64,000 bases of DNA from Parietichytrium sp. I65-24A. Taxonomy: Eukaryota > Sar > Bigyra > Thraustochytrida > Thraustochytriidae. The stretch covers positions 248,001 to 312,000 of the forward strand of contig BLSF01000040.1 in the NCBI GenBank assembly GCA_012862575.1, read 5' to 3'. Both the position numbers and the translations under genes were made by a program. The notes beneath the pieces are model-generated. The model searched no databases. It saw nothing but the letters and a program-made list of their open reading frames with translations, and was not told where the DNA came from. This document shows, one piece after another, positions 27,868 to 63,701 of the stretch (the first letter of the stretch is position 1; each line of letters opens with the position of its first letter).

Positions 27868-30800
27868 CTAACGATAGTGTTCACGTGTGAACGCCAAGAC
27901 CACGCGGAGCGCCCCAGCGTCGTCAAAATTATTGGCACTGGGAATGTTGATATTGAACTCCTTTTGTTCGAGCAATGTTCGCTCGTAAACCTGCTCACTG
28001 TTCGAAAGCTGGTCCACAAAAAGACTATGGAATGTGCACACCTCACATTCGGTAGACTTGGCAAAAGTTTTATCCTCTGATTTAGGATTGGAAACTCTCC
28101 TCTTGTGCCCGCGCTCGAGCCATAAGCCAAAAGGGTCAAAGGGGACAATTGGATATAATGCAGTTGTCTTGACATCCTCGTTTGCTCCAGCGTAAACATA
28201 CAAATCCGGGAGAGCATACCGAGTGGAATCCAAAGCGCTTCTATCTACGCTCTTGCGAGAGTTGTTCCAGACTCCACCTTCCAGCGCGAGGCCGCTGAGC
28301 ACAAATGTAGGTTGCCGCTCAGGCTGGATTGGCCCAAAAGAAGCACGAGGACGAATGTCTTCAAGCATAACATTCTGTTCAGCAGCAAGGCTGGTCAACA
28401 GTGCCCATAGCATGGCTTTTGGACTTTGAAACGCCGACAGCACAATAGGAGTAGCGCAGATGCTCTCTGCGCTCGGTTGTTCTTCCTCCTCAAACAGCAG
28501 CGCCAATGTCTGCAGGATCCCGCGCTTGTCTAGGAGAAAGTTTGCAATGGACTTCAGCGAGAGATCGTCAGGCAATGCAAATATTGTTCGCAGAGACTCT
28601 GTAATCAATTGCAATTCCATTGGATTGTTCTCATCATCTTGCTTGAATCTGCTCCAAATTTCATCCTTCCACATGCGGATCTTCTTCCCGAACCAAAAGA
28701 CTTCGTTTTTCAGCGCCAGTGCTAAAATGCTTTTTGCCCCTTTCTTCTTCAGATTTAAAGGCAATGAAATCGGCTCGGAAGCCAGTTCTAACTTTTCAAT
28801 CACAAGGTGGTCCCTCTCAATCTGTTGCCTACCAGGATTGATGCTAAAACTATAGGCCAGATCCCTTCGGAAGGTCGCGCTCACCATAGACAAGTAAGCT
28901 TCATCCGACCCAGCTTCGAACCCTGCGCAACTGAGCCACGATCGATGTTGCTTCTTATCTGCCTGACTCTTCAGTGGGTCGTCCAGGCGGAAATTACAGA
29001 GCGTGGCCCAAGGCGCGCTTCTTACGGAGTAGCGCAACGGTGTGTTTTCCGCAAGAGGAACAAAGAGCTCCTGCGTCTTCAGTATGTGAAGCAAGATAAA
29101 GTCAAGGTCCTTCATCGAACTAAAGATATGTGACCCGCAGCTCAACTCTATGAAGAGATGCACAAGAGACCGCGCTTTTCCATAAATGTCAAATTGCATC
29201 ATGCGAATGCCCTCGTGCGCTTGTACCAAGTCTTTCACGATTGCCTGGTCCGAAAACTTCCTTGAAAAGTTGTGAGAGGGCGTCTTTCGTTTGCCAGTGG
29301 GAACCGGACGCACAATTCCCACCAATTTGTTGACATGCTGCTTCACGTTTAGCTCCGTGCACTGACCGCTTAAATATTGCTTTTCGAGTTCTGATATGCT
29401 GCTCAAGAACAAATTAGGATCAGGGCTCTCAAATAGACTTTTACGGTGCCCAAACGCCTCGTGCTGTTTGAGTATGGTCTTGAAAAAGCTAAAGGCGAGA
29501 AGAGCCAACTTCCAGATCAGGCATCCAGCCTCCCCAGCAAGGCCATCTTTACTTTCTGCCTTCTCCCAACTGTGAAGGTAAAAGTGAAACCGGTCTTCCA
29601 TATCGTAGGTAGCGTCGCCGCATCGTTTAAGCCACACAATATCTCCATGGAACCCGCGACTTTCTGAACGGTGGCCACTCTGGTTACAAAGCATGACACT
29701 GACCTTCCACTCGTCGTCTTGTGCCACTCCCCCGCCTCCTCCTCCCCCAGATGTGCTTGCGTCGTCCCAATCGACGCTTGAACTATCGTCCTCGTCTCCT
29801 CCGTCGTGGTTGCTGAGGCTCGAAACGAGTCTCCTACCTTTCGACGAACTGTATGCGAGAGGTGAACGACACAAGCTACTGATGCTATCCTTCACCTTGT
29901 CTGAAGCAATGTTGTAATCCAGCAGCAATATATTTTTGCGGCCTTCGTAAGCCTTGGAAAATATCTCCAGTAGCTGGTCCGGCGTTATTTCTGCAGCAGA
30001 AATTGCAAGTACCCCTTCTCCATTGAGAATCAGCGCTGCTTGCTCAGCAACTTCCATGATCGTTTCCATTTGCAGGTTTGGATAGAGAATCAAAACCGGC
30101 GTCCTCGTCGTCCGACTCGAAAGGAACAAAGCAAGTTCCTCCCCATTCATGACACCTTTTTGAAGAGATGCAGTTGACAAAATGGCCTCCGGGCGTTTTA
30201 AGCGGCTCGATAAGGAAGCCTTTCGAAGCTGTGCTTTGGGCGAAGCCTTATTGGCAGCGTAAATTGCTTCCTCAAGCTTTGCTGCTTCTCCAGCTACAAA
30301 CTTCTCCAGCTCCTTTTGCTGATCAAGCACGTAGAGGCGTAGGGCTTCTGAAAAATACTGAGGGCAAAGTGCAGTAATGATTGCAAAGTGTGCAAACGGA
30401 TCCATGACTTTGTCAAGGTTTGTTTTCCGGAATTCTTCTTGCAAAGCGCGAATGGGATCTTCGCTGCGCTTCAAGGTGAAAAAATTTGCCAGGTCGGAGT
30501 CCTTAGAAGCTAATGCGCTTGTCCTTGCGCTCGGAACGCAGACAAGAGCCCGATTCACAAGATACTTGACTACATCTGGCTCTCCTCCAGCATTGCGCCC
30601 AGCCTCGTCTGATTCTAGGAGTAAAAAGCCGATGATCCTCCGCCACTCGACTAGAGAAATCCTGGGACGGTCACCATAATTGCTCCTCGCAACACTCAGA
30701 ACACTCGCTCTCAGGCTACCGGCTCTGTTTGAAATAGAGCTTCTGGATAGTCTTGTGCGCCGGACCATCTTTGTGAGGTCCATTTTCGCTGTGTATCGTC

Positions 30801-33800
30801 GCAGGTCTCCATTTCGTCCGTGTCTTGCGGTGGATAAACGACGAGACTCCACCCCGTCAGATTGTCGCACGGATGCTTTTCTGTTGATGGGGCCGGTTAT
30901 TGCAGTGGACCGTCGAGAGGTCTGGGAACCTCTAACTCCCGGTGCCACGACACCTTGTCCAGCCGAGCTCCTGCGTCGTTGGATCTTTTGCGCGAGAGAA
31001 GTTATCTCGTTCACGTGCGACCCATCAAAAGGCAAGATCACGATGTGGTCTTTAAAATGGCCCATCTCTCTCTTCTCCACATCTACCCTGCAAGAATACT
31101 CAAGCTCCAAGAGAATAAGAGCAAAGAGAGCTTCACGCTGTTGAAGGGAAAGGGACTCGCTAAATAGCTCTCCAACCTCAAATCCGACTCTTACCATGGC
31201 TGCGTAAAGCTGGTCCCAAGTGAGCTTTTCCTGGAGAAGCGCGTCCGAGCTCTGAATTTGAGCCTCTTTCAAGTCCACCTTAGATCGCGACCTTGCCATC
31301 AAGTCAACTTGCTTTCGCCCAGCTCTTGCCGGCACTGGGGCGGCGGATGCTCCTATGTTTGAGCTTACAGTTTCAATACAATTCCAAAACGACGAGAACG
31401 AGCGCACGATGGCCGCGCTGAAACCGGCATACTCCGCATTGGCCACCAGTCCAAGCGATTTGTAGAAGCGGATGCATCTTGCGTAAAGCCTCCCACTAAA
31501 CTGTGCGGCTGGCCAGAACATCTGCAACTGCACCCCTAAACGCTCGCAGTACTCGAATTTCCATGAGTGGAATGTTTCCAGTATGCGCCGGAAATCGCCT
31601 CCGTTTACGAGAACCTGATCCATCACAGACTCATTCTCCAAAAGGACCTCGGCTGCAATCATTTCCCTGTCATTATTCCCCGAAGGCACATGTGAGTCTC
31701 CACCTCGATCGATGCCAGAAGAATCATGACCAGGAGACCGCCCTCCAAGCGCCTCCAAAAGCGAACTTTGAAGATTTACACGCTGCATTGCGGTGGACAA
31801 ATGGACCACTGCGAACGTGTGCCAGCTCTCAAGCAAGTTCAATGCTCGAGGAGCACCTGCAAACATGTGATAGAGAAATCCATTAGCGAAACAGTGCTCC
31901 TCCTTGTAAATGCAACCAAAGTCAAAGACGGCAAGGTGATCACGCAGCACCTCTGTGGAAGCGTCGATCATCTGTTCACAAGTTGCAACGAGAAGGTAGG
32001 GCGAACTAGACTCTCCTTGAATGTTTTTTCCATACGAAGCTATCGCCAATGCGAGCTCGGGAGACACGTTGTTTGTGAGCTTTTCGATGACTAGGGTCTT
32101 CCCGGTCCGTTCCGCAAGCTTCACAGCCTCATACACCAGCGCGCCAGGAGCAGAGCTGTCTATTACAATACAGCTGGAGGTGCCCTTGCAATAGCTCAGG
32201 ATCCATGATTTTCCAAATCCGTATGGATCTCGTAAAACTGGGATACGAAAAGCCCACTTTCCATTGTGATGAGATGTTCCGCTTTTGTATATTGTGAAAG
32301 AGTGCAGGTTGCTCTGTAAAACATGGGCAACCATGCAGGCCTGTGAGATTAGTGATCTTGCAAGAGGAAGGCGCGCCTCAATCCAGGTCTGGCAAACTTT
32401 CGAAGACGTCTCGTCCTTTAGAATCTCTCCCAGTGGGAAGCAAAAGTCAGTGTTGGTTCCAAACTCAATCGAGAGGTTTCCGAGAACTCCAGGAAGAGAC
32501 AAGCTGATACTCTCATCCTCATCGTCATCTTCCTCAATATCACTGTATCCTCCGTCAAGGTCGTCCTGACTTTGTCCTCCACCAACCTCTTCGATTGAGC
32601 CGCCGACTGCGACTGTACGGGGGTGATTCCAGCTTACGACATGAGTAGCGTTGCTCAAGCTCGGCTTCAGCCCCTTGTCAAGTAACAAACCCATCCATTC
32701 CCCCAGGCAAACAGCTTGAGTCGCTTCATCCATCATTCCAAAATAAGTGCAACACGCTGAGATCAAGATGGCGTTCGCGGCAAACATCCCGTCCGCAATG
32801 TCCTCCTCCTCCCGGTGCCGCAGCAGCTCGAGCTCCTGAACCCAAGATTCTCTGACCTGGTCTCCAAGACATTGGCAGAGCCGCATCGCACGCTCGGCCT
32901 TTGCCTTCGAGAGATCAATCTTGGTTCGCATGTCGTCCAGCTTCACCTTGAGAATGGAAACCTTGCCTTCCAATTTGTTTAGAGTCGCCGTCTTCTCAGC
33001 AATAGAGCGCGTTATTTCTTTGCGGACAACTTCCAAAAGCCCTAGGTCAGAGGTCAGTTCGCTCAAGTACTCTTGCTTTGGCTTCATGTTTGCAACAATC
33101 TCTCGGTACTGCACCACAGAGTGCAGCCAGCGATGGAGAACTTCCAGCACTTGCTTGCACTCAACAAAGGTGCGCTTGTTGTTGCCCCTCTCCCCGGAGG
33201 CGGCGGACCCTGGCTTTTCGCCGATGGCGGACGTGTCTCCCAGAACTTCTTGAACTGCGGGGGAGTTTAGAAGGTCCTTCACTTGCGCAACCACAACATC
33301 ATCAAGCCCATCCTTCTTTAAAGAGAGAAGACGAACAGTAAGTTTGGCATCTCCAAGGACTTGATGAGAAGTAGCACGACTCCAGTAGTAAGTTCTTGGA
33401 AGAAATTCCAGCTCCAACTCTTCAAGTCGCTTTTCCACCTCCGCTTCGCCGTGAATCTCTGTTTCATTCTCTAGAGTAGCCTTCTGGGCTTGCCAGATCT
33501 CTTCACGCTTTTGCAATCGTTCGTTGAAGAGAACCATGTAGAGCGACTGGACAATGTTCCTCATTGCGTTTGTTGGCTGCTTTTGTCCACGTAGCTCCAG
33601 AAATCTAGCTCGAGGGAGCCTTGTTAAACCCTCAGCTGCCGAGGCTAAAAGCGGAGACAGGTCGTCAATCGCCTTTTTCATTTCCTCGCGCAGTGCCGTA
33701 ACCTGAGAGTCCTTTTCCCGCCAGGCCTCTGTTTCAGACTCCAATCGGAGCTTCTCGGACTCCAAATCGCGGTTCAGTGCATCGATATCTACTTGCATGG

Positions 33801-36800
33801 AATCGTACGTCTCTTCGTTTTTCTGCATCTCAGGGATCAGCCTGCTCGACTCTTGGCGCATACTGATGGTTACCAAAGAGGTGATGTCAACAACTAATGT
33901 GGCCTGCTCCAGCCTCTCTTTGGTGATACGAAGCTTCTTTCGGAGCCCCTGTGTTGTTAGAGAGCAAAGCCATACCAGGCGAAGGAAGCTGGAATCTCCA
34001 ATGCTACCGCCATGGTCATTTCCCGCTCGTTCGCATAGCTGCGAGTACGCATTTTCAGCAACCACGTGCATCTCATACAATACGTCCACTACTTCCAGCA
34101 TATTTTCATGTGAACTGTCTTCCGATTGGCCGCGCGGAAAAAGACTGATGCAGCCCATACCAGCGGTATCTCCCATTGCGGAATTATTAACTTGCCGTAT
34201 GAGGTCAACGCCAATGTCGAACAGATTATGTTGTGTAGGAACCGGGGCTTGAACTAAAACAAAATGCCTCATTGATTGCTGAAGGCTCGTTGACATTTCC
34301 AACCCAAGCCTGTCTAAATCGCTCATGAGAAGAATCACAATGCGCAAATTTTTACGAACTGCCCCTTTGAAATATCTTAAGAGCTCCAGCTTTCCGTATT
34401 TTGTCGCGAGCTCGTCAGCATCTTTCTTCAAGAGAATCTGTAGCTGCTTCAGAACAGTGCCTCGAGCTGCCTTCCGCTCGACCCTCGCAAGAGCGGCTCT
34501 TGACCCTGGCTCATTGGGCGACGATCCATCGTCGTCATCAAGGTCCTGATCATCCTCATGCCAATCAAGGACCCCGTCACAATCCCCGGTCTCCATAAGT
34601 GTTACAAGATCCTCCATGATCTGCTCGGCTACCAACTGTTTCCTGGACAAGTTCACGTCCGTAGAGAAGAACAAGACACCATAGTCTATTGAAAGTACGT
34701 GTGTGGCCTGAGAGTCTAAGCCTGCAGCAATAATTACCTCTCGCAGACTCTGTTTCCATGTCAGCAAGTCAGGAAATGGATCCAGCTTGTGAGTGACAAA
34801 GTTTTGCGCCCGAACGCATTCACGCAAAATTGTGTCGTGCAGCCCAATGCCAACCGGATCCACCATGATTGTGCTATAGCCGAAACAAGAGGTGTTGTCT
34901 TCGTAAAACAGGTCTTGTCGAGGGATTGAGAGTACGCGAGAAAGTTTTGCGGTGCAGTTTGCCACATACTCGTTCTGGAAGAACATCAAGCTGTCTACAA
35001 CTTCTTGCATTGTAATTCTTCGAAATTGTGCCTCGAAGTCGGTCCCGCTCTCATAAATCATCGTCTCTAATCCTGCTTCACTCTTCTTGCTCGACATTCT
35101 CGCGAGAAAGTCACTCGCCGTTGTAGACGAAGAAGAGTCCTGTCTACTCATCAAGCTCGGTGGCCTCGAATGCGATGACTTGCTTTGAACTGGCCCTTCC
35201 TCATCGCTGCTGCTCGAACTGTCGCTCTCATAATTGGCGGAACGGGGTTTGTGTACACCTTCGGAACGGAGGGCAAGACCACTACGTCGTGAGATCGATG
35301 GGGCGGCTGCGATCGACGAACGCCGTTCTGCAAGGTTGTATGACTCTGCCCCCGCGCCCGATTCCTCATCGTTCGCCAGATCATACACGAGTCCCATTGT
35401 CGATTCTCGCCGTTTGTTAACCAATTTTGCGAACATTTGGTCGCCTTCGTCATTCCCTTCCTTATGACACTGATTGAGCTCTAATACCTCTTTCTCGATG
35501 GCGTTTAGAATACTATGTGCGGTTCTCGCCGACCACTGAGCATCGATCACTGTAGAGAACATCCCAATTGCCCAACATCTGATAAGGTTGGATGCAGACT
35601 CCAAGTCAGCATCAGCAGTCCTCAGAACAGCGCTAAAGACTTGTACCAAATGGTCGGCATGCACGCTCTTTGGAAACGCTCTGCGAAGTCTTACGCTCGC
35701 ATTTCCCAGTTCTTGCCCGAGTTCGATTAGATTCCAGTGTCTAGAGATCAACCGCGAGTGCATCATCTTATTAAATATAGAGCTTAGTTCCTGGTCCCCA
35801 AGCTCACTGATCTTTGCGTGAAAAGGAAATCGGCTAAGCATCCTCTGCAACCCTTGGTCCTGTTCGGAGCCCGTACCATTGTGGGATTCGGCAATTGAGT
35901 GAGCACCAATCATTTGCATCGACTGCAGCCGAATATCTGCGGCACCTTTGAAACCATGTATAGTGGAAGTTTCAAGAACGTGCCGAAGCATCTCTTGTGA
36001 CTGCCTGGGACACAAATTAAGGTCGTCAACAAATATAATCGTCTTTGCGGAGGGCTTTTGAAGTGCATCGAGCTGTACTTCGGCAGGCTTTGCAACATGA
36101 TTAGCCTTGGTAGCTTCGTTGGACTGCTGTGAAGAGACTGTATTGGATTTTTGCTGCTTTGCACCTCGAGCGCGTTTCTTGTGCGCCTTTTTCTGCATGG
36201 GTGCATTTAACTGAAAACCGGTGCTTAGCAAATTATTGCCAAAAGTCGGCGGGCCATATTGGGTTCCGTAATATTTTTGCATGCTGTGCAGGACCTCCGT
36301 CCTTACCATATCAGCGCGCTTCTTTGGCTGACACACGATGTGAGCAGATGTAGCGGCTACGCCGTTTGCCTCCCACTCCTCCCTGAGCTTCCGAATAACA
36401 GCAAGTATGATGGAGGTCTTCCCTGACTCAGCCGGCCCTCGAAGAAGCACCTGTACGTTGCAACGCAGAGCAAGTTGGAGGAACCAGCTCGCACGGTATT
36501 GGCCCAAAGACAACAAGCTGAGATTCGACATATTAAGCTCCATGGCAGGTACGTTTGCTGGCACGGCTGCCAGGTGCGAAGTTTCCCATGCCACCCACTC
36601 CCGCCTCGGAAAGTCGTACACGTAGTCTACAACACTCTTCTCTGTGGGAAGTTTTTCCAGACTTGCTGGGGAGAATATTTTCTTCGCGATTCTTCGAATG
36701 GTTTCATCAAATTCGTCTTGTCGCAGATCCAAAATTTCGTTTTCGAAGGACCAGACCAGACTAAAAAGAAATGCGCACTCAATTTCTATAGCAGCCTCGC

Positions 36801-39800
36801 CTTCTTTGTCTTGGTCTCGGAAGATGTGCGACTCGAATTGGACGAACAAGGAGTTCAGAACGGAAAGCATGTGAAGCGTGATACTCATCGACTTTTTGAC
36901 TGATTGTTGATGAGCTTGAACCGATTTGAAAGCCCGTGACAGCCCGCCATCAAATAACTCCTGCAGTTTCTTTTTAAAACTGCGGAATCTGACCGGAAGC
37001 AATGGGAATGAAGCGTCTCCGCTTGAGTGGCTCGAGTTTAACCATCGGAAGACAAGATTGTGCCAGGTGACTGAGTCGTCACCCATTAAGACGAGCTGGC
37101 AGCTTGCCACGACACCTGGACATGCATTAACCAGGGATGTGCTTTCGAACAATATCCTAGATTTGTTAGATACTGCCACCAGCTCGCCTTCGCCCCGGCC
37201 AGCACAGAAAGGATACGAAGACTCATCCAGAAGACGCTGAAGGCCGCCTTCAACCCACTCGCCGTGTGGGTTCCCGTCAAGAAGGAGCATCTTTGTGCCT
37301 TTGAGCAGATATGCCAATTCTTGGGCTGCATCGCTGTGGCTGACAGTTCCAAGGTAAACACTATCGTGGTGCTTTGAGCTCTGCAAAAGGGTCGGCAGGA
37401 ACGAAAATTTGCTACTCTGGCCCCAGTCTGATGTCTGAAGGTAAGACAGCGCTTCCAGCAACAGGCCTCTGTGAGTGTGAGCACCGCTTTCTCCCTCCGG
37501 TGATCCGTAAAAATCTTCCGCGTTCAGGGAATCAGGAAAAAGCCGCACGGCTTCAATTCCAACTCCCTTCAGCAAGTTTAGAGCAAAGAGAAAAACATTC
37601 AAGCAGGTTGTTTTCCCGCACATGTTTGATCCAACCAAGAGAACAGCACCGCTGGAACGGTTGTGGACAGACGCTGTTGTTTCTGTCAGTGCTTCAAAAA
37701 AGCCGAGAGCGTAGCACAGCTCCACGCAAACATCACCGAGCCTCGAACCTTTGCTTTGAAGACCTAATCTACTGCAAGCATGGTTGACAAGGATGTGCAC
37801 TAATTCGTCAAGCACTTGGAGTTTGTTTGTGGGATTGTGTTCAAGCTTGACTTGCTCCAAGGCCTCACTTTCCAGATGCGAATCTCGAGACACGGCTGGC
37901 TCTGATTCCATCGCGGAGTCTGTTTCTTGCAAGTCTTCATGAATTTGACCCGCGAGATTCAAATGTGCCTTCTTCATGTCCACATCACCATGGTATGCCA
38001 GAGCTTGGCTTGTCCGCTTCCTCCGAAATCTAGAGCCTCCGTTGAGATCCCCAGCAACAAAATTCCCAGTTCTGGGCCCATTAATAGCCCCATTCGCGAA
38101 AAGTGAGCTAAACACCGAAAAGGCGGCCTCTGTTTCGTGTCTTGGGCCAAAGCGTTCCAACAAAACGCGGATTGCTGCTTCGGGTGTGTGCTTACAGATT
38201 GTTCGCTCCTCAAACCACACTTCCCCTCTACTCTCTTTGACGAGAATCTCCCAAACCACCTGGATGATGAGGCGAGCATTTGTGATCGAGGCAACATTGG
38301 CCAATCCTGGAGAGAGGGATTCCACGGTCTCCAGACCGAGAGCAATCCGCTTCGCCACCCTCATGGCGGCGCTCGGTTCCAGGCCCAGGAGAATGCAAAC
38401 CTCGATTTGTGTTGCATGCTGAAGCGCTGGCGCAAGCAGCATACAAGGGCGAAGGAAGTTGCTCAAAGATTCTGGGAGCTTTGGTCTATGAAAGGCATCC
38501 CCCCGCGGAGAGAATGATGATGCTGCCATAAGTGCTGGACCCGTATAGCCTGCGACGGACATGCTCGCCGTGTTCACTCGAAGTGCGGTGACAAATTGAG
38601 AGACAAATTGAGCAATCGTTCCAATGCGATTCCCACAATCCAAGATACCGTCGAGAACGCCCCACGCGAGTGTCTCTTTTACCCCGCAAAGCTGTCTTTC
38701 AAAGGAGGATAAAGGCGCACTGCCAGAGCTTGATGCAGAGAAGAAGTTAGACAACGGAAGTTGCACCACTCTCTTGGCGCATATGTGACCAATTTCAGCA
38801 ATGCAGGCTGACTTTCCCACTCCATGCGGCCCGAACGCTGCTCCGACAGACACAGACGCGATTGTAAGCGCCAGTGAACGCAAGCACCGAATGGTCACCG
38901 GAGTAAGTACAAGACGTGATGTTGGTACCTGAAATTCACATCCATATGAGATCTTCGCCCCCAAAGTCCGGACTTCGAACGAGGGGCTCGAGGTATTGCC
39001 GCTACCAATGTCGTTTGTAGTGTCATAGACGCGGAGGCTGGTTTGCCAGGCAAGCTCATCTTCGTCGTTGGCGATGTCTCTGTAGTTCTGGAGAAGCGTA
39101 AATACCGCTCCAACGTTTTGCAAAAAGACCTTGCTGTGATTGCAGCCACCTCGCAAAGAAGAGGTTAGATCTTTAATCTCCCCGTTGATTCTGGAAGAGA
39201 CGCCCAGAAGTGAGTCAAACGGTGTTTGAGCCTGACTCGAGTTCTTCGGAGAATATGGAGAGCTAATCTCGTCATCCTGGCTGATCTTCAGTGTTGCGTC
39301 CTTCAAGCGAATTTTGTGGAATGGGTCGTCAACGGCGACAACTGCTCGAAGTACAGGCTGATTGCATTGGCCTTCTACGTTTGCAAATGCTTGATCTAGT
39401 TGTCGTGTGTATTCCAGCCTCAGAGCGGTGAGGGTTGCTTGCTGCGGTAGAGCGTAGCTTTGGGCAATGCTGGACAGCTCTTCAGAGAGCAAGAGCTGGG
39501 TAGCTTCTCTGATACGTATTGCAACGATCTCCTTAATCGTGGCATCAAGTTGATCCAGCCAAACCTCCACTTCAATTCGGCGGTCATTTGAAACGTTGCT
39601 GTCTTTGTTCCGAAGGCGATAGGCTACCGAAACTCCAAAGTCTGGGTAAATTTGAAGCACTGGTGAGAAGCCTCTCTTCGCTTGTTGCCCATCAGACAAG
39701 TTATTCTCGGCTCTTCGAGTGGTTCTGCCGGTCGCAGCCAGGGCCAAGTAAGTCGTTAAATCGTCTGCAGTGTACAAAGACTTGACGAGCAGTCTTTCGC

Positions 39801-42800
39801 TCTCAATCTCTTCTGAATCAGGGTTTGCTGACACAATTGAGCCGTACTTCTTTACAGCAGCTGCGTGTTCGTCAGAATCTTTCGCAAGCAGTTCCCAAAC
39901 CAGTTCTAGATGCTCTATGCCGTCGTATAGGAGAGGGACAAACCTTCGGAGTTCGGAGAAGTCGCTGTGGCTAGCACGAATGAGCTCAAGAAGCTGCGCA
40001 TCGTTGAAAAAATATAGTTTCGGGAAGACCTTGCGTTGCTTGTCGAGTCGGCTGCAAAGCTTTTGGTTGATCTCTTCCATACACTCGTTAAGATCCTCGA
40101 AAAGCTTGAGCGGAAGAATTTTCAGGTCTGAAAATTGAGGGTTCTCAGGATCGTCAAGTTCTTCGTCTTTGCCTTCAATCATTTGGACAACCTGAAACAA
40201 CGAAAGCTTGTGATCATGCAATGAGTTGACAAACTTCTTAAAAATGGCGTCCGCAAAGTGAAAAGACTTTACCTCCTTGTCGTCCATCTTGATAGCTGCA
40301 TTGTTGTCAAATTGCTGAGAATATATCGCCTCCATCGGCTCCCATCGATTCTGAAAATGAGTGAGCGCCTTGAGCCACTTTCTAAAATGCATGATCCCTT
40401 TGGCGTAATTTTTCACGCGATCCAACATGTGGCCAGATCGAGCATATTTGGATTGCTGCATATTCCTGAGGCGCACGAGCTGTTCGTCGAGGATAGCATC
40501 GATGGAATTCGCATCAAGCTCCAGCGCCATACTTCCCTCGCCACCTTCGGCATTCTCATCTATAGATTGCGGTGATGAAGGGTTTTTCGCCCCGGTCGCC
40601 TTTGCACTGGCTTTGACGGCCTTTGCTTCTCGGGCTTTACTTAGCACAACAGTGTGCGCTCCGCGGTTGGAGACCTGAGCCGTTTGAATTCGATGCCCGT
40701 GTAAAACCATCTCCATTTCGTCCAAGGTGTGTTCGATTTCGAATTCGCGCTCCGCTACCTGGCAGATTCTTGCGATTTCGTCTTCATATCGAGTGACTCG
40801 AAGACCATGCAGTTTGCCAAGCGTCAGCCCAGGGGCGTTAAGGGGCAAGTCCTCATTGACAGGTACGAGCCGTCCGGAAGACGTTGGCTCGGGATTTAGA
40901 TTCAAGAGTGACGTAAGTTGGTCGCCATCCATAGGGTTCATGATAGAAATAATTTGCTTCCAATGGCGAGCTTTCATCGCTCGGCTGCGAAGCATCTTGA
41001 TCAAAGGAAGGTACGCTTTAAACTCCAAGAGATTTGCTTGAATCTGAACGCAAACAGAAAGGGCAATGGGGTCGATTTTCTCGTCAAACTGGTGCACAAG
41101 GTGTTCAATCAGGTCAATCCATCCCCCCTTTGCTTCCAGATGTTGACTGATTGAATCTGGGTCGATCTCCATAAACGGTCCTTTATCCCACAGTTCCAAC
41201 GCTTCGCGCGAATCTGCAGCGAGCGTCCACATCTGGTAGAACTTTTCGAACTTGTTTCCAAGATTAAGCACCGCTTCGTAGACTTTAACGGCCTCTTCTG
41301 TGGTTTCGCTTGTCGTCACTTCTTCGCCATGCTTTTTGGCGACTTCAGGACGGTCATAAACTTTGATTCTATCTTTCAGCACTTCCATTTGGGACAGAGC
41401 ATTCGAGATCTCCTGATACAGTCTCTCCATATCCATGGCGTTCTCATTAGAGCTCTCCAGTCCACTCAAGACCCGTGCCTTTTCATAGCGTTGTTCTAGT
41501 TGCTTGATGACGAATTTTAACCGGTCCTTTTCCACGCAGAGTTCTGCAAGGAACCTGCGCGCCTTTTCCTTCGCTGCCGATACCATAGATTTGCACGTGT
41601 TAATAACTCGCGAAGGGGCAAGGTATGTGTCTTGTTCCATCTGGATCCCTGCTTGTGGCCGGAAATATCGAAGCCGGTCCAAAATGGTAAGCCGTTCCCA
41701 GGCCTTCACAATCAAACGTTGCTCAATGTCGGGGAGAATTTCGTCTTCCAGGTTGACCTCGATGTTCCATAAGCGAGACAAGTCCTCTGTGGAGCTGATG
41801 GCAGATTTCAGATTCGACATGAGTTCGTTGTACTCTGAAGTGGCTGACTTCAGAAACTCGTGCGATTGCTCATACAACGCATCCATCAAGCAGTTTGCCA
41901 GTGAAGTGCAGGAATCGAGTAGACCTGCTTTCGCCTCAGATGCATCAATCTTGAAGAGAGGAACTTCAAGCTCGGAAGAAAATCCAGCATGGATGCGGTC
42001 CTGAACCTCAAACAGCCGAAGGACTTCCTCCTCAAACCGGACAAGCATGGCCATTTCGGATTTGCTCGAATTCGAAAGCCGGAACTTGTCGTAAAGGTCG
42101 CTTAAAGTGCTTGGTAGTCTCAGCTTGGAGATGTCTTCCGATCCCATGGTCTCTTCACCTTCATCGCCTTCATGTTGACTCTTTTCCTCGTGGTCGTAAC
42201 GCTTCCAGTCGCTCCCTAGAGCGCCGCTGCCATTCGACCCGACTTCCTCGTCATCCTCACTCCGTTGTCTCCCTTCGGAAATATGTGCTAATACGTAGGG
42301 CTCTCCGTCTCCATCTGCGACACCGTTGTGTTTGGAATCTTGCGTCGCACCAGCTTGCACGACTGTGCCTGGCTCGTCAAGGTCAAAGTCCCCAGATGAT
42401 TCTGACGAGTCGTCGTCAAAGAGTCCAAAACTAGACACGGACCCATTCCGGGCGTGTTGGTCTAGCAGCGCTGAAGTGAAGGTGTCTGCTCCAGCTTGGC
42501 CCCTGTCTACATTTCTTTTCACCAGAGCTTTGGTGAACCATGTACAGTATAGTTCAAGGTCAAGGTCCGCCACGTGTTCGAGATCTGAGTTAACCCCTGA
42601 GAGGATGTCTTTCTCGACTTCTCGAACTGTATCCTCCAGCTTTGAAGCGTCAACAATTACTTCACTAACTAAAGCATCGATCCTGCACCTTGCTCCCCAA
42701 AGAAAGTCGGTGATGTATTCAATATGCTCGTGGCCGGAACGCAGCGTCCTGAAAAAGTTGTAGGTGCGAGACGAAGCCCTCTCTGACTTGACAGTAAAAG

Positions 42801-45642
42801 TGCTTTGCACATTTATTGGCAGGAGAGACACATGAGGGGGTCGATCGGAGGCTGCCTTCGAAGACTTTGCAGACCCGCTTGCATCATTTGCAGTTTGGTT
42901 GAGGGCTTTTAAAGCTGCCAGCACCGGGGTGAGGCCATGCGTTGGATCTTCCACATCCCTCAAATAATCCCCTGCTTTGGCCAGAGAAGACATAATTCGT
43001 GATTTGACGTCTTCCAAAGGTGGAGAGAACACGCCTCCTCTTGCAAAGCCAAATTTTAGAGAGAAGAATCCGGGCGCGTCACACTGAATCAGTCTGCGTG
43101 GCGAGAGGTCGACAACAATTTTCCGCTCGGAAACGGAATAAAAGGATGCGTTCAGACGGCAGGCAGCTTGGAACATGTCAATCCACGAGTCGATTGAAGT
43201 CTGCACATAGTTGAAAATTTGCTCGCGAAGCAGCAGTGTCGTTCTCCGCACGAGCTTATCAGCCGCAGATCCTTGAAACAAGTTCGGGTCGTTGATGTAA
43301 AAATCGAATGTACCACCTCCCGGGGCTGGGGAGCCCTGTAACCCCCCTAGCAGCATCATGGTGACCGTGTGCAGCCATTTGGAAGACAGGAGGTGAGTGG
43401 TTGTCTGCACATGAATATCTTGCTTTTTGGAGAAGAGATTGGCTGATATCGGCACCCCAAGCTCCTCCCTAGTTGCAAAGAGGGTCACTTCCCCGAATTC
43501 GTGCCCTGCTCCGTCTGCAAGATATCTGCCCAAGTTGATACTGATATCGTGCATTGAAGAAATCGCGTTGGCTAGGGCTGCATATGAACTGTAGTGAAAT
43601 CGTTTCGCAAGATTTACTGCGGATGTAAATGGAATGCTTCGCTCCGGAAGTGGAAGTATCGCAAACCTGTTTGTCCAAGCGCGGCGGGCTGCTAGCCGCA
43701 CGCGTTGTGCGCGTGCAACGTCCCATCTTTCAATTTCAATTTCGTAGTACTCATGCATTCCTGGTTTTGCCCACTTTGGAAGAGGTTCCCACTTCCTCTT
43801 CGTTTTGTTCCTCGTCCGCTTGAGAGTCGGAGTTGATTTAGTTGACAAGGCTAAATTGTATGCACAGGCTGCGTGGTGAAAGTGCTCTTCCGTGACCTCA
43901 ACGAGCTCCTTGGAGAGCAGTCGGCGCGCAGCTTTCACCATCCAAATTAGGGTAAACGGTACCCATTCATTTACCTTTGAGATGAGCTTGGTCTGCTGCT
44001 GCTTCCAAACCTCTCCCGGATCCGTTCGGCGCTGCTCCTCTTCCGCAATTATACTTGTGAAAATTGTTCTCACTAGATTCTCTGCGTCAAAGTTCTCAAC
44101 TGTTCCAAGTTGCTGAAGCGAAGTAACTCTCAAAAGAGTTCGCATTTCTCGCAGATATAATAACAAATTAAAGCTTCCAGAAGATGGATTCGGCGATAAG
44201 CACGCTGATGCTTCGGAATGCTGCCGAGCCAGGAGCTTTAGCGTGGGATTCCCATCGGCAGAGCTGGACAGCGAGTAGCGTTTTTCATTTAATATGATAG
44301 GCACGGCTCGAACTGAGAAATTGAGTGCAAGCTCAACGATTTTCTCTCGAAGGGCATATAGGCGGCTCACATTGGTGAAAGAGTCGGGGTGACTTTCCTG
44401 CGATGGTGGCGTCAAGCCATTTAAATACCCGCGAGCCGGTAAAGGGTGGGCGAGATGAAAGTTTGCTAGCCTAACCTGAAGCATTGCAATCTTCCGCAGA
44501 ATATGTGCAGTATATACGCGAAGCCTAAAGCATATTTCCGGCTCCGCCGCGAAGCGCAATAATGATCTGACACACCACTTTGTGACTACGACGGACTCTC
44601 CGTCTTTCGCAAATGTCAAAGTAACATAAAAGGTGTTTGTAACTGCATCATACCTTTTCACTTCGCATGGGATCTCCAACCCCTTCGTCTCGGATCCTGA
44701 GGAAACGAGCGTCTGCAAGAACGCAGGCGTCGAGCCTTTGAATCTTTGCGTCCTTGCACAGATTAAATTATCGTCCGACACCCATTCCTCATCTCGAAAT
44801 CCACAGTTTAAATTGCACTGCTCAGCATGGCCACACACGCCCGTGCCCACGTCGTAGTCGTGCAAGTAGTGTATGTGCCCGGTCTCGCCTTGGAAAACAC
44901 CCTCTTCCCAAGTTGGCAGTGTAAAAATCTCTCTCTGAGGTACTATTGCATCTGGAACAGAGTGCGGCTGGGGAAATTCTGCGAGTTCGACTTCTGAACC
45001 GTCTTGGTGTGCACTCGTTGCGGCTAGTCGTCTTTGAATTCTCCTTCTCTTTCGCTTGCTACGGACCTTGATTGCATTCAGTCTATAGTTTGGCAAAGTC
45101 AACAGCCTTTCGGAGCTGAACCCAGCTGCAATCCTCGAGCTCATTGAGTCTATCCGCTTTCCTAAGTGGACATCCTTGTCCTTTCCTCTTCCGCTTGATA
45201 GTGAGGAATCTTTGTGGCTCAAGCCGCGTTTTTTGGGAGTCAGATGCTGTCCGTGCCTTGGTGACTGGTTTCCCCCAAAATCAGATGGCGCACGTTTGTC
45301 AGGTCGCATCGGAAAGTAGTTGTGCTGCTCGGGAGCTTTGTAGGTTTGATAGGTCTTCCACGCCGCAGGCTCGCCTTCCGATCCTTCTTCTCCTTCTTCT
45401 CGAGTGATCGGTTCATCGGCCGAGCGTAGTCTGTCCGCTGACTCGTGGAAACTCTGTGATTCTTGATCATGGTCGTCCACTTCCTCTTCTTCTTCATCCT
45501 CGATATCGCAATCTTCTTCTCGGAAGTCTGTTCGCTCTGAGAAGCAAAGGTCTTTTCTGAGAATGCGGCCTTCACGACATTTTGAATCATCAGCCACCTG
45601 AATTGCCGCATTTCCTGTCGCCTCGATGGCCTCTTTGATCAA
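27868..45642 (-). CDS. Divergent axonemal-type dynein heavy chain, AAA1 apparently catalytically dead
   Basis: About 5924 residues in one uninterrupted frame; usual heavy chains are 4000-4700. The start is provisional: the frame opens after a TGA at 45685-45687 and has no ATG before residue about 113. An acidic amino extension (EEDCDIEDEEEEEV) leads into a tail with the late-tail signature SIDSWIDMFQA. The linker is clear (ARHWKQI, KWLKALTHFQNRWEPMEAIY, FPKLYFFNDAQLLELI). AAA1 has Walker A GPHGVGKS (about 2270), but the Walker B counterpart of FDEFNRI reads LDCGNRI. AAA2 has GSNMCGKTT (about 2667); AAA3 has GPAESGKTS (about 3068) with Walker B IIFVDDLNL; AAA4 has lost its P-loop lysine (VDPVGIGLHD, about 3592). 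The stalk follows at about 3910-4300, with coiled coil on both sides of a microtubule-binding insert and the MKPKQEYL landmark. AAA5 (DPYGFGKSW) and AAA6 (TPVLILYPN) come next, then a long C-terminal domain. The tail resembles single-headed inner-arm dyneins. Confidence 0.92.
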   Translation of the reverse strand: MIKEAIEATGNAAIQVADDSKCREGRILRKDLCFSERTDFREEDCDIEDEEEEEVDDHDQESQSFHESADRLRSADEPITREEGEEGSEGEPAAWKTYQTYKAPEQHNYFPMRPDKRAPSDFGGNQSPRHGQHLTPKKRGLSHKDSSLSSGRGKDKDVHLGKRIDSMSSRIAAGFSSERLLTLPNYRLNAIKVRSKRKRRRIQRRLAATSAHQDGSEVELAEFPQPHSVPDAIVPQREIFTLPTWEEGVFQGETGHIHYLHDYDVGTGVCGHAEQCNLNCGFRDEEWVSDDNLICARTQRFKGSTPAFLQTLVSSGSETKGLEIPCEVKRYDAVTNTFYVTLTFAKDGESVVVTKWCVRSLLRFAAEPEICFRLRVYTAHILRKIAMLQVRLANFHLAHPLPARGYLNGLTPPSQESHPDSFTNVSRLYALREKIVELALNFSVRAVPIILNEKRYSLSSSADGNPTLKLLARQHSEASACLSPNPSSGSFNLLLYLREMRTLLRVTSLQQLGTVENFDAENLVRTIFTSIIAEEEQRRTDPGEVWKQQQTKLISKVNEWVPFTLIWMVKAARRLLSKELVEVTEEHFHHAACAYNLALSTKSTPTLKRTRNKTKRKWEPLPKWAKPGMHEYYEIEIERWDVARAQRVRLAARRAWTNRFAILPLPERSIPFTSAVNLAKRFHYSSYAALANAISSMHDISINLGRYLADGAGHEFGEVTLFATREELGVPISANLFSKKQDIHVQTTTHLLSSKWLHTVTMMLLGGLQGSPAPGGGTFDFYINDPNLFQGSAADKLVRRTTLLLREQIFNYVQTSIDSWIDMFQAACRLNASFYSVSERKIVVDLSPRRLIQCDAPGFFSLKFGFARGGVFSPPLEDVKSRIMSSLAKAGDYLRDVEDPTHGLTPVLAALKALNQTANDASGSAKSSKAASDRPPHVSLLPINVQSTFTVKSERASSRTYNFFRTLRSGHEHIEYITDFLWGARCRIDALVSEVIVDASKLEDTVREVEKDILSGVNSDLEHVADLDLELYCTWFTKALVKRNVDRGQAGADTFTSALLDQHARNGSVSSFGLFDDDSSESSGDFDLDEPGTVVQAGATQDSKHNGVADGDGEPYVLAHISEGRQRSEDDEEVGSNGSGALGSDWKRYDHEEKSQHEGDEGEETMGSEDISKLRLPSTLSDLYDKFRLSNSSKSEMAMLVRFEEEVLRLFEVQDRIHAGFSSELEVPLFKIDASEAKAGLLDSCTSLANCLMDALYEQSHEFLKSATSEYNELMSNLKSAISSTEDLSRLWNIEVNLEDEILPDIEQRLIVKAWERLTILDRLRYFRPQAGIQMEQDTYLAPSRVINTCKSMVSAAKEKARRFLAELCVEKDRLKFVIKQLEQRYEKARVLSGLESSNENAMDMERLYQEISNALSQMEVLKDRIKVYDRPEVAKKHGEEVTTSETTEEAVKVYEAVLNLGNKFEKFYQMWTLAADSREALELWDKGPFMEIDPDSISQHLEAKGGWIDLIEHLVHQFDEKIDPIALSVCVQIQANLLEFKAYLPLIKMLRSRAMKARHWKQIISIMNPMDGDQLTSLLNLNPEPTSSGRLVPVNEDLPLNAPGLTLGKLHGLRVTRYEDEIARICQVAEREFEIEHTLDEMEMVLHGHRIQTAQVSNRGAHTVVLSKAREAKAVKASAKATGAKNPSSPQSIDENAEGGEGSMALELDANSIDAILDEQLVRLRNMQQSKYARSGHMLDRVKNYAKGIMHFRKWLKALTHFQNRWEPMEAIYSQQFDNNAAIKMDDKEVKSFHFADAIFKKFVNSLHDHKLSLFQVVQMIEGKDEELDDPENPQFSDLKILPLKLFEDLNECMEEINQKLCSRLDKQRKVFPKLYFFNDAQLLELIRASHSDFSELRRFVPLLYDGIEHLELVWELLAKDSDEHAAAVKKYGSIVSANPDSEEIESERLLVKSLYTADDLTTYLALAATGRTTRRAENNLSDGQQAKRGFSPVLQIYPDFGVSVAYRLRNKDSNVSNDRRIEVEVWLDQLDATIKEIVAIRIREATQLLLSEELSSIAQSYALPQQATLTALRLEYTRQLDQAFANVEGQCNQPVLRAVVAVDDPFHKIRLKDATLKISQDDEISSPYSPKNSSQAQTPFDSLLGVSSRINGEIKDLTSSLRGGCNHSKVFLQNVGAVFTLLQNYRDIANDEDELAWQTSLRVYDTTNDIGSGNTSSPSFEVRTLGAKISYGCEFQVPTSRLVLTPVTIRCLRSLALTIASVSVGAAFGPHGVGKSACIAEIGHICAKRVVQLPLSNFFSASSSGSAPLSSFERQLCGVKETLAWGVLDGILDCGNRIGTIAQFVSQFVTALRVNTASMSVAGYTGPALMAASSFSPRGDAFHRPKLPESLSNFLRPCMLLAPALQHATQIEVCILLGLEPSAAMRVAKRIALGLETVESLSPGLANVASITNARLIIQVVWEILVKESRGEVWFEERTICKHTPEAAIRVLLERFGPRHETEAAFSVFSSLFANGAINGPRTGNFVAGDLNGGSRFRRKRTSQALAYHGDVDMKKAHLNLAGQIHEDLQETDSAMESEPAVSRDSHLESEALEQVKLEHNPTNKLQVLDELVHILVNHACSRLGLQSKGSRLGDVCVELCYALGFFEALTETTASVHNRSSGAVLLVGSNMCGKTTCLNVFLFALNLLKGVGIEAVRLFPDSLNAEDFYGSPEGESGAHTHRGLLLEALSYLQTSDWGQSSKFSFLPTLLQSSKHHDSVYLGTVSHSDAAQELAYLLKGTKMLLLDGNPHGEWVEGGLQRLLDESSYPFCAGRGEGELVAVSNKSRILFESTSLVNACPGVVASCQLVLMGDDSVTWHNLVFRWLNSSHSSGDASFPLLPVRFRSFKKKLQELFDGGLSRAFKSVQAHQQSVKKSMSITLHMLSVLNSLFVQFESHIFRDQDKEGEAAIEIECAFLFSLVWSFENEILDLRQDEFDETIRRIAKKIFSPASLEKLPTEKSVVDYVYDFPRREWVAWETSHLAAVPANVPAMELNMSNLSLLSLGQYRASWFLQLALRCNVQVLLRGPAESGKTSIILAVIRKLREEWEANGVAATSAHIVCQPKKRADMVRTEVLHSMQKYYGTQYGPPTFGNNLLSTGFQLNAPMQKKAHKKRARGAKQQKSNTVSSQQSNEATKANHVAKPAEVQLDALQKPSAKTIIFVDDLNLCPRQSQEMLRHVLETSTIHGFKGAADIRLQSMQMIGAHSIAESHNGTGSEQDQGLQRMLSRFPFHAKISELGDQELSSIFNKMMHSRLISRHWNLIELGQELGNASVRLRRAFPKSVHADHLVQVFSAVLRTADADLESASNLIRCWAIGMFSTVIDAQWSARTAHSILNAIEKEVLELNQCHKEGNDEGDQMFAKLVNKRRESTMGLVYDLANDEESGAGAESYNLAERRSSIAAAPSISRRSGLALRSEGVHKPRSANYESDSSSSSDEEGPVQSKSSHSRPPSLMSRQDSSSSTTASDFLARMSSKKSEAGLETMIYESGTDFEAQFRRITMQEVVDSLMFFQNEYVANCTAKLSRVLSIPRQDLFYEDNTSCFGYSTIMVDPVGIGLHDTILRECVRAQNFVTHKLDPFPDLLTWKQSLREVIIAAGLDSQATHVLSIDYGVLFFSTDVNLSRKQLVAEQIMEDLVTLMETGDCDGVLDWHEDDQDLDDDDGSSPNEPGSRAALARVERKAARGTVLKQLQILLKKDADELATKYGKLELLRYFKGAVRKNLRIVILLMSDLDRLGLEMSTSLQQSMRHFVLVQAPVPTQHNLFDIGVDLIRQVNNSAMGDTAGMGCISLFPRGQSEDSSHENMLEVVDVLYEMHVVAENAYSQLCERAGNDHGGSIGDSSFLRLVWLCSLTTQGLRKKLRITKERLEQATLVVDITSLVTISMRQESSRLIPEMQKNEETYDSMQVDIDALNRDLESEKLRLESETEAWREKDSQVTALREEMKKAIDDLSPLLASAAEGLTRLPRARFLELRGQKQPTNAMRNIVQSLYMVLFNERLQKREEIWQAQKATLENETEIHGEAEVEKRLEELELEFLPRTYYWSRATSHQVLGDAKLTVRLLSLKKDGLDDVVVAQVKDLLNSPAVQEVLGDTSAIGEKPGSAASGERGNNKRTFVECKQVLEVLHRWLHSVVQYREIVANMKPKQEYLSELTSDLGLLEVVRKEITRSIAEKTATLNKLEGKVSILKVKLDDMRTKIDLSKAKAERAMRLCQCLGDQVRESWVQELELLRHREEEDIADGMFAANAILISACCTYFGMMDEATQAVCLGEWMGLLLDKGLKPSLSNATHVVSWNHPRTVAVGGSIEEVGGGQSQDDLDGGYSDIEEDDDEDESISLSLPGVLGNLSIEFGTNTDFCFPLGEILKDETSSKVCQTWIEARLPLARSLISQACMVAHVLQSNLHSFTIYKSGTSHHNGKWAFRIPVLRDPYGFGKSWILSYCKGTSSCIVIDSSAPGALVYEAVKLAERTGKTLVIEKLTNNVSPELALAIASYGKNIQGESSSPYLLVATCEQMIDASTEVLRDHLAVFDFGCIYKEEHCFANGFLYHMFAGAPRALNLLESWHTFAVVHLSTAMQRVNLQSSLLEALGGRSPGHDSSGIDRGGDSHVPSGNNDREMIAAEVLLENESVMDQVLVNGGDFRRILETFHSWKFEYCERLGVQLQMFWPAAQFSGRLYARCIRFYKSLGLVANAEYAGFSAAIVRSFSSFWNCIETVSSNIGASAAPVPARAGRKQVDLMARSRSKVDLKEAQIQSSDALLQEKLTWDQLYAAMVRVGFEVGELFSESLSLQQREALFALILLELEYSCRVDVEKREMGHFKDHIVILPFDGSHVNEITSLAQKIQRRRSSAGQGVVAPGVRGSQTSRRSTAITGPINRKASVRQSDGVESRRLSTARHGRNGDLRRYTAKMDLTKMVRRTRLSRSSISNRAGSLRASVLSVARSNYGDRPRISLVEWRRIIGFLLLESDEAGRNAGGEPDVVKYLVNRALVCVPSARTSALASKDSDLANFFTLKRSEDPIRALQEEFRKTNLDKVMDPFAHFAIITALCPQYFSEALRLYVLDQQKELEKFVAGEAAKLEEAIYAANKASPKAQLRKASLSSRLKRPEAILSTASLQKGVMNGEELALFLSSRTTRTPVLILYPNLQMETIMEVAEQAALILNGEGVLAISAAEITPDQLLEIFSKAYEGRKNILLLDYNIASDKVKDSISSLCRSPLAYSSSKGRRLVSSLSNHDGGDEDDSSSVDWDDASTSGGGGGGGVAQDDEWKVSVMLCNQSGHRSESRGFHGDIVWLKRCGDATYDMEDRFHFYLHSWEKAESKDGLAGEAGCLIWKLALLAFSFFKTILKQHEAFGHRKSLFESPDPNLFLSSISELEKQYLSGQCTELNVKQHVNKLVGIVRPVPTGKRKTPSHNFSRKFSDQAIVKDLVQAHEGIRMMQFDIYGKARSLVHLFIELSCGSHIFSSMKDLDFILLHILKTQELFVPLAENTPLRYSVRSAPWATLCNFRLDDPLKSQADKKQHRSWLSCAGFEAGSDEAYLSMVSATFRRDLAYSFSINPGRQQIERDHLVIEKLELASEPISLPLNLKKKGAKSILALALKNEVFWFGKKIRMWKDEIWSRFKQDDENNPMELQLITESLRTIFALPDDLSLKSIANFLLDKRGILQTLALLFEEEEQPSAESICATPIVLSAFQSPKAMLWALLTSLAAEQNVMLEDIRPRASFGPIQPERQPTFVLSGLALEGGVWNNSRKSVDRSALDSTRYALPDLYVYAGANEDVKTTALYPIVPFDPFGLWLERGHKRRVSNPKSEDKTFAKSTECEVCTFHSLFVDQLSNSEQVYERTLLEQKEFNINIPSANNFDDAGALRVVLAFTREHYR

Positions 45643-46188
45643 CTCAAGAGCCCTGTTGACCGCAGCGGCGAGATTAGCACGCGTTCATTTCACACACGTT
45701 AGTAGCGCTCGCATCCTGATAACAGCTTAAGCAAATGTGAAACTGAGAGAACAATTCCACGGCATGGTGGCCGCCCGTGCAGGCCACAAACACCAGAAAA
45801 ACTCACCGATCCCAGTCCACATCGACCTTCTCATCAGCAACATCCATCTTCGTTCCCCCCGTCACAACCTCGCTACCAATTTATCATCCAGCCCTGCGTC
45901 CCTCCGTAATTTCCCTCCAGTCTCCAGTCTCGAGAGGCGAATTGCGAATTGCGCCCTGCTTGCTCGCGCCGATCGAGCCAGCCAAATCAGTCTACTTTCC
46001 TATCCCGCTTTCGCTTCCCACGTTCGAGGCCCCACACTATCCCTTACAGCGCCGCAACCACAGTGCCCGACGTGGAGATAAGGAGATGAGGAGATGTGTA
46101 GAACCGGAAACTGAGTTCTTTCGCGGGTTCTCTCCTCACTTGCGAACCAGCTGCGCCGATTGCGACTCGCTGGCTTGTACTTTCCGCT

Positions 46189-46215
46189 TCTCTCTCTCTC
46201 TCTCTCTCTCTCTCT
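46189..46215. repeat. (TC)n microsatellite
   Basis: About 13 dinucleotide units; a purine tract on the dynein coding strand about 550 bp upstream of its open frame. Confidence 0.9.
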
Positions 46216-46952: not shown

Positions 46953-46987
46953 CTCATCGGTCTCATCGGTCTCATCGGTCTCATCGG
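46953..46987. repeat. Tandem repeat, 9-bp unit CTCATCGGT
   Basis: Four direct copies, the last ending in CTCATCGGG. Confidence 0.9.
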
Positions 46988-63210: not shown

Positions 63211-63701
63211 CCTCCTCTGATCGCAACTGCAATCGGCGGCCACCACCCAGCCCCTGTCCACGGCCCACTGGCCACTGACCCCCCTTGCCACTCTTGTCAC
63301 TCTTGTCACTCTTGTCACTCTTGTCACTCTTGTCACTCTTGTCACGCTTGTCACTCTTGTCACTCTTGTCACAAAGTCCCGTATCACGCTCGCACAGGTC
63401 TCACAGGTCTCACGCTCGGAACGTTCCACGCGGCCAACGCTGCTGGAAACTTTTGGCCCACTGTGGTTGAGCTGTGGTTGAGCTGTGGGGACTGTGGGGG
63501 CTGTGGGATTTGATTCTCAACTGTGGGATACTCGTTCGTTACCATGGCCGATATTGGTTTTATGGTTTAGTTAGCTATGAACTGCTGTGTTACATCCATG
63601 GAATACTGTTAGTAGGGTAGGGAAGCTCGTGTACTTTTCTTTCTTCGAAAGTGGGATGTTATGTCCAGTGGATAGGCCGTTAGTTAGAGGCAAGCCCGGA
63701 G
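63211..63701. other. Upstream region of the VASt gene
   Basis: Contains a 9-bp minisatellite that keeps an open reading frame on the gene's coding strand, and otherwise no feature. Confidence 0.5.
63288..63371. repeat. Minisatellite, 9-bp unit CACTCTTGT
   Basis: Nine to ten direct copies with one CACGCTTGT variant; in frame with the VASt gene it would encode repeated Arg-Val-Thr, but it lies upstream of the first ATG. Confidence 0.9.

Follow-up and report, generated by a model that had tools for sequence, protein, structure and literature searches.

A very diverged thraustochytrid dynein heavy chain that has lost catalytic parts of AAA1 and is probably a non-motile structural dynein

INTRODUCTION

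Can a dynein heavy chain be kept as an intact gene when catalytic parts of its AAA1 site are gone, and what could such a chain still do? In active dynein, according to the excerpted text of PMC7215579, the ring closes when AAA1 binds ATP, which brings about release from the microtubule, and hydrolysis restores the affinity. The question is raised by a stretch of 64,000 nucleotides from Parietichytrium sp. I65-24A (the window), whose minus strand holds an open reading frame (ORF) of 5,924 open codons at positions 27868 to 45642. Judged by its sequence, the product belongs to the dynein heavy chains but has diverged strongly from them. An earlier note on this DNA had described it as a giant dynein with a lost AAA1 Walker B glutamate and had suggested a structural or regulatory pseudo-dynein. 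Residues are numbered from the TTG of this ORF (TTG = 1), and all features of the gene lie on the minus strand.

RESULTS

Domain layout and divergence

Four Pfam domains scored above their cut-offs: the linker DHC_N2 (PF08393; 161.3 bits, cut-off 31.9, E = 4.4e-47), AAA1 as AAA_6 (PF12774; 46.7 bits, cut-off 25.2, E = 2.8e-12), an AAA lid (PF17852; 56.5 bits, cut-off 23.1) and AAA3 as AAA_7 (PF12775; 40.7 bits, cut-off 25.8). The linker region spans residues about 1400 to 2215 (38998 to 41445), with the best stretch of PF08393 at residues 1461 to 1669, and is preceded by a tail (residues 1 to 1390; 41473 to 45642) in which Pfam found nothing above cut-off. The stalk and microtubule-binding match stayed below cut-off (16.6 bits versus 24), as did a weak Dynein_C match (PF18199) at 28177 to 28446 (18.3 bits, cut-off 25.7, E = 0.0015), and both Pfam and the profile alignment left AAA6 and the C-terminus barely recognisable. 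Linker, stalk and ring had all been described as kept; this holds for the linker, AAA1, the lid and AAA3 by Pfam and for the stalk by the model described below, but hardly for the AAA6 and C-terminal end.

Of the 230 columns that canonical dyneins conserve, the query keeps only 103, and its identity to every dynein class is 16 to 24%. Nevertheless, 72 PDB sequences matched at E 0.001 or better; nearly all of the 60 listed are dynein heavy chains or dynein-like AAA+ proteins, and a few, as long as dyneins, are named as other axonemal proteins. The top PDB matches were two Chlamydomonas doublet chains (8glv, which gives no class name), DNAH7 and DNAH1. In a protein database search, 175 proteins matched the linker and ring, the best of the 120 listed with 22% identity over 9% of the query, and the named top matches among those listed were mainly DNAH7 and DNAH3. 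A second protein search, with its words packed into the linker, gave three matches. Neither search found a close relative, a weak negative since exact shared five-residue words and a similar length were required.

Loss of catalytic parts in AAA1

The AAA1 Walker A motif GPHGVGKS (residues 2271 to 2278; 38809 to 38832) is intact, as had been noted before. For Walker B, the earlier note had taken LDCGNRI (residues 2334 to 2340; 38623 to 38643) and concluded that the glutamate was replaced by cysteine. The profile alignment, however, places Walker B at WGVLDGI (residues 2327 to 2333; 38644 to 38664), where most paralogs read WxCFDEF: Asp2331 takes the place of the Walker B aspartate and Gly2332 that of the glutamate, with a posterior code of 9 at both positions and a drop to 4 to 5 across LDCGNR. 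The same pairing was obtained with MAFFT, and the predicted Walker B strand, WGVLD (residues 113 to 117 of the modelled fragment, pLDDT about 60), ends at Asp2331. Pinning NRI to the canonical NRI, which would make cysteine the replacement, requires an insertion of four residues as well as a deletion of five and is not preferred. We prefer Gly2332 because the profile alignment needs just one single-residue gap; the supporting structure is of low confidence. The glutamate is missing whichever alignment is taken. Thus, the loss of the residue stands and its identity is revised.

The damage extends beyond Walker B. At the place of TMNPGYAGR, which we take to be sensor I, the query reads AASSFSPRG.. 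(38500 to 38529), whereas TMNPGY is kept in 16 of 17 paralogs by pattern and in the 17th (L024) by alignment. The motif HYDxG[LM]R, presumably sensor II, is likewise lost in the query and kept in all 17 paralogs. All 18 other heavy-chain genes read in the genome (the 17 in L010 to L026 plus L001; L027 was left out of this count) have kept [FL]DEFNR in AAA1. The features of motile dyneins that are absent from the query are therefore the AAA1 Walker B Asp-Glu pair and the residues of sensors I and II.

AAA2 to AAA5

The Walker A motifs of AAA2 (GSNMCGKT; 37609 to 37632) and AAA3 (GPAESGKT; 36415 to 36438) are intact. The Walker B motif of AAA3, FVDDLN (36016 to 36033), is followed by a stretch that is six residues shorter, and its Asp-Asp is of the same type as in 16 of 18 paralogs. 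Since this Walker B is of the ordinary Asp-Asp type, nothing marks AAA3 as a substitute engine. In AAA4 the P-loop region reads DPVGIGLHDT (34831 to 34860) and is degenerate. The earlier note had singled out the missing lysine of this loop; the loss of the P-loop is real and in fact larger, as the whole glycine-rich loop is gone, but the lysine by itself is uninformative, with Lys-to-Arg an ordinary change found in 9 of 18 paralogs. AAA5 lies around DPYGFGKSW (31963 to 32325).

Stalk and microtubule-binding tip

An AlphaFold2 model of residues 3560 to 4260 (mean pLDDT 69.6) shows two long helices around a helical tip. The stalk coiled coil is placed at residues 3883 to 4007 and 4155 to 4259 and the tip at about 4011 to 4135 (together 32866 to 33996); pLDDT is mostly 80 to 90 in the coil, 61 to 85 in the tip and 31 to 60 in much of AAA4. 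In a Foldseek search the stalk matched 8i3j, the stalk and tip of human inner-arm dynein d (TMt 0.75, rmsd 6.1), and 3wuq (TMt 0.76, rmsd 7.2). When the full stalk model was compared with whole dynein chains, rmsd rose to 24 to 36 Å and only the stalk fitted. Stalk and microtubule-binding tip are thus predicted to persist. The model of AAA1-AAA2 was poor (mean pLDDT 49), and the 50 structure matches listed for it were all dynein or dynein-bearing doublet entries. The alignments behind the two models contained 17 and 16 canonical paralogs, which pulls both models toward the dynein fold.

DISCUSSION

A dynein that is probably no longer a motor

The best explanation, which we hold to be probable, is a non-motile, microtubule-binding structural dynein heavy chain that no longer works as a motor. 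AAA1 may still bind nucleotide with its intact Walker A motif, but no turnover would be expected since the water-activating glutamate, the sensor-I asparagine and the sensor-II arginine are all gone. Without hydrolysis at AAA1 the ring would be unable to drive the power stroke of the linker, and a chain lacking the glutamate and both sensors would be stuck in one state. The kept stalk and tip could then serve as a passive cross-bridge or scaffold, with the tail anchored and the stalk on a microtubule. We infer the absence of ATPase activity, the expression, the flagellar place and the structural role. The suggestion of a pseudo-dynein fares well in this respect: with the linker, the AAA2 and AAA3 P-loops and the stalk kept and the AAA1 glutamate and sensors gone, a dead chain with a structural or regulatory role is the best reading. 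A dimer partner of an active chain would be compatible with the data but is not indicated by them, and the variant of a motor driven by AAA3 is not supported.

The nearest laboratory counterpart is a dynein in which the AAA1 glutamate was changed to glutamine and which, in the excerpt of PMC4359366, lost virtually all ATPase activity. It resembles the query in that Walker A is kept and the Walker B glutamate is gone, but it carries one engineered change in an active motor, whereas the query has lost many parts of AAA1.

A natural counterpart is vertebrate DNHD1, which we treat as a functional analogue and not as family: by analogy, the query would work like DNHD1. Both share the linker-ring-stalk plan and evolve fast; both have lost the AAA1 Walker B glutamate, sensor I and sensor II (as seen in four aligned DNHD1 rows) and kept the P-loops of AAA2 and AAA3. 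They differ in that a frog DNHD1 (P0190) lacks the AAA1 P-loop too, whereas the query keeps Walker A, and in that human DNHD1, with 4,753 aa in the excerpt of PMC9916431, is about 1,200 aa shorter. In the frog the P-loop reads GQDEGLRT, which takes the decay within DNHD1 one step further. A strict Walker B pattern occurred in none of 71 DNHD1-like matches but in 142 of 145 other dynein matches, and the relaxed pattern [FLWYIVM]DE[FWYLM]N was found somewhere in all 145; these counts refer to any place in the sequence and not specifically to AAA1, and some of the 71 are partial (e.g., P0131). The 71 matches are vertebrate where named. The query of that search was a fish protein, and scoring was confined to the 1,687 candidates with the most words in common, which makes the search little informative on protists.

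Malformed sperm flagella have been reported as a consequence of DNHD1 variants (excerpt of PMC9916431), and in dnhd1 morphant zebrafish the cilia were fewer and shorter (PMC9749982, as excerpted). Since defects of DNHD1 disturb flagella or cilia and the genome holds a broad set of axonemal-type dyneins, the most plausible site for the query would be the flagellar axoneme, among the active arms. In a tree, the 17 paralogs are scattered over inner-arm, outer-arm and cytoplasmic groups, so that the organism is probably flagellate.

Origin of the gene

DNAH1, DNAH3, DNAH7 and DNAH12 are single-headed inner-arm axonemal dyneins. As to origin, we lean toward a fast-evolving descendant of such a dynein that lost its motor independently of DNHD1. 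The named top matches among those listed, in proteins as well as in the PDB, point in this direction, and the highest profile score was that of the inner-arm set; this profile, however, has only eight members, and any long-branched query will score higher with classes that evolve slowly. The query resembles the single-headed inner-arm dyneins, which are among its best matches, in the Asp-Asp Walker B of AAA3 and in a stalk fold like that of 8i3j, but the single-headed inner-arm paralogs keep the AAA1 glutamate, sensor I, sensor II and the glycine loop of AAA4. Trees constrained to an inner-arm origin were not rejected (p-AU 0.93 for the motor, without DNHD1 rows, and 0.80 for the linker) and were 7.7 log units above the free tree in both cases, in the linker above the placement beside DNHD1, a difference that is not significant and comes from quick trees. 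Grouping of the query with DNAH6 was rejected in the linker (p-AU 0.0001). Against this origin stands the low identity to all classes alike.

All origin trees were calculated with a quick method and without the rows L009 and L027. The linker tree holds no paralog of this genome, as the fetched pieces end before the linker, and the later motor trees comprise 1,350 columns up to AAA5, the profile alignment having skipped AAA6 and the C-terminus. In two of the trees, which contain few taxa, two paralogs and an oomycete dynein form a clade with a support of 100. The position of two long-branched Ulva dyneins with canonical AAA1 motifs, P0059 and P0202, differs between the regions: the motor trees put them basal in the canonical group, the linker tree within this group and close to rows of inner-arm type and DNAH6.

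That the query instead represents, among protists, an ancient class of dead dyneins of the DNHD1 type, so that DNHD1 would not be restricted to animals, we regard as unlikely, although several observations favor it. The four aligned DNHD1 rows have the same AAA1 lesions, and trees join the query to DNHD1 (SH-aLRT 99 with 12 DNHD1 rows in two motor trees and 83 with 9 rows in the linker tree). The branch of the query, however, measures 2.7 to 4.1 changes per column, a setting for long-branch attraction, and 9.3 in a tree without divergent rows. Conserved columns were co-retained with the four DNHD1 rows more often than expected (66 to 72 versus 47 to 54), but this was also true for two other divergent rows (92 versus 83 and 85), and co-retention is not decisive since it is expected for kin as well as for dyneins freed from the same constraints. 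In the 75 to 85 columns where the query and DNHD1 both depart from the canonical residue, they agree in 13 to 17, which does not exceed the level of control pairs.

Profile scores were similarly divided. With linker profiles matched in size and diversity, the query scored 75 to 80 bits with DNHD1 and 51 to 80 bits with canonical dyneins, which puts it about equally far from both; with 12-row linker profiles the values were 98 and 113 bits, respectively. For all 10 control dyneins, in contrast, the DNHD1 score reached at most about 0.6 of the canonical one. Profiles of the whole motor favored inner-arm types over DNHD1 (186 versus 82 bits), also at equal size (164 versus 82 bits). Linker profiles that were equal in size only had given a ratio of DNHD1 to best canonical score of 1.25 for the query and at most 0.53 for 120 other non-DNHD1 targets, but the canonical profiles among them were less diverse. 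When diversity was matched, the lead of DNHD1 over canonical dyneins vanished and the difference from the 10 controls stayed. A kinship test on log residuals was dropped as well, the residual having tracked the number of sequences per profile, and so was a four-residue Walker B insertion in common with DNHD1, which had seemed likely by eye, since the DNHD1 rows align to the canonical Walker B without gaps. Altogether, descent from an inner-arm dynein fits as well as or slightly better than kinship with DNHD1.

Integrity of the gene

The stop-free frame extends from 45684 to the stop codon at 27868, and none of the approximately 200 stops expected in 5,924 codons from the triplet frequencies of the window is present; the uninterrupted 17.8-kb frame reported in the earlier note is therefore confirmed. 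The gene probably starts not with the TTG of the ORF but with a better ATG in an upstream exon. This predicted exon 1 of 41 nt (45807 to 45847), opening with MDVADEKVDVDWDR.. at the ATG at 45847, joins exon 2 in frame once a predicted intron of 154 nt (45653 to 45806) is removed. The intron has a GTGAGT donor and a CAG acceptor, and a TACTAAC box lies 52 nt ahead of the acceptor's end. Exon 2, as predicted from the ORF and the gene model, is the remainder of the heavy chain including the stop codon (27868 to 45652), and the two exons would encode 5,941 aa. The excess length, previously put at about 1300 residues, was confirmed as such but came to about 950 to 1,790 aa when the ORF was measured against 17 paralogs (4,149 to 4,993 aa), whose lengths are those of open frames, at least L014 continuing in another frame.

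Codon usage (RSCU) correlated with that of the 17 paralogs at 0.73 in frame, versus 0.38 and 0.25 in the two alternative sense frames and 0.64 in antisense frame 0. When 600-codon pieces were compared among the sense frames only, the true frame was best in 9 of 10, in two of them narrowly (0.39 versus 0.35 and 0.32 versus 0.31), and it was not favored at residues 1 to 600 (0.20 versus 0.33 and 0.36). Selection on the gene, as suggested in the earlier note, may be read from the intact frame and the codon usage. A genome search with the AAA1-AAA2 piece found no second copy of the gene; it returned the piece itself and at least 23 weaker matches with 21 to 36% identity.

A decaying gene in an early pseudogene state, or an unexpressed frame, is improbable in light of these data. 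The extreme divergence, the lack of an ortholog in the searches and the missing codon support for residues 1 to 600 would fit it, but 17.8 kb without a stop, the nine pieces that favor the frame, the intact start exon and intron and the kept P-loops and stalk speak against it, and such divergence without a stop would need long selection on the protein. Least probable is a chain that is still a motor, with another residue in place of the glutamate or, as had also been suggested, with AAA3 as the drive: AAA1, AAA2 and AAA3 do keep intact P-loops, but sensors I and II are lost too, the AAA3 Walker B is the Asp-Asp type common in the paralogs, and the Glu-to-Gln change at AAA1 alone virtually abolishes ATPase activity (excerpt of PMC4359366).

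On the 3' side, an enoyl-CoA hydratase-like gene (26369 to 27616, plus strand) converges on the dynein gene at a distance of 251 nt. Upstream of the dynein gene lie a TC microsatellite (46189 to 46215) and a 9-bp tandem repeat, CTCATCGGT, in 3.9 copies (46953 to 46987).

Novelty and implications

Among the literature matches listed, whose titles and abstract beginnings were covered, we found no protist dynein without the AAA1 glutamate; PMC12338079, as far as its excerpt goes, concerns outer arms. Within the literature and protein databases searched, a dynein heavy chain that is dead as a motor would be new outside the vertebrates. Whether independent of DNHD1 or shared with it, a dead dynein encoded by an uninterrupted frame of 17.8 kb in so distant a eukaryote would imply that loss of the motor with ring and stalk retained is workable and has been used in evolution outside vertebrates, and a role of dynein without ATP hydrolysis would become testable in a microbe. 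DNHD1 has been termed a "ghost gene", an orphan heavy chain perhaps turning into a pseudogene (excerpt of PMC8754002). A far-reaching and rather doubtful idea is that dead-motor dyneins form one ancient class, represented by DNHD1 in animals and by this protist, that has served as a fixed axonemal strut since early eukaryotes; if this were true, the "ghost gene" would be left over from a part common to flagella in general rather than being about to disappear.

Other observations in the window and genome

Two further dynein-related loci were seen in the genome. L009 (G000:C15:171400-181399) is a canonical paralog that extends over two frames near its P-loop GETGVGKS, probably because of an intron, and L027 (G000:C110:40000-49999), whose frame of 949 aa matches AAA_6 weakly and over a short stretch (26 bits), is not a full dynein. 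Elsewhere in the window, two tandem frames on the minus strand (13783 to 14931 and 15968 to 17116) encode 382-aa, membrane-like proteins that are 35% identical to each other and hydrophobic by eye; Pfam gave no match in this pair. A frame of 1,319 aa (5392 to 9351, plus strand) has a C2 domain and DUF639, which Pfam describes from plant proteins of unknown function. Finally, a frame of 1,328 aa (59443 to 63429, minus strand) combines VASt and PH domains, presumably as in sterol-transfer proteins.
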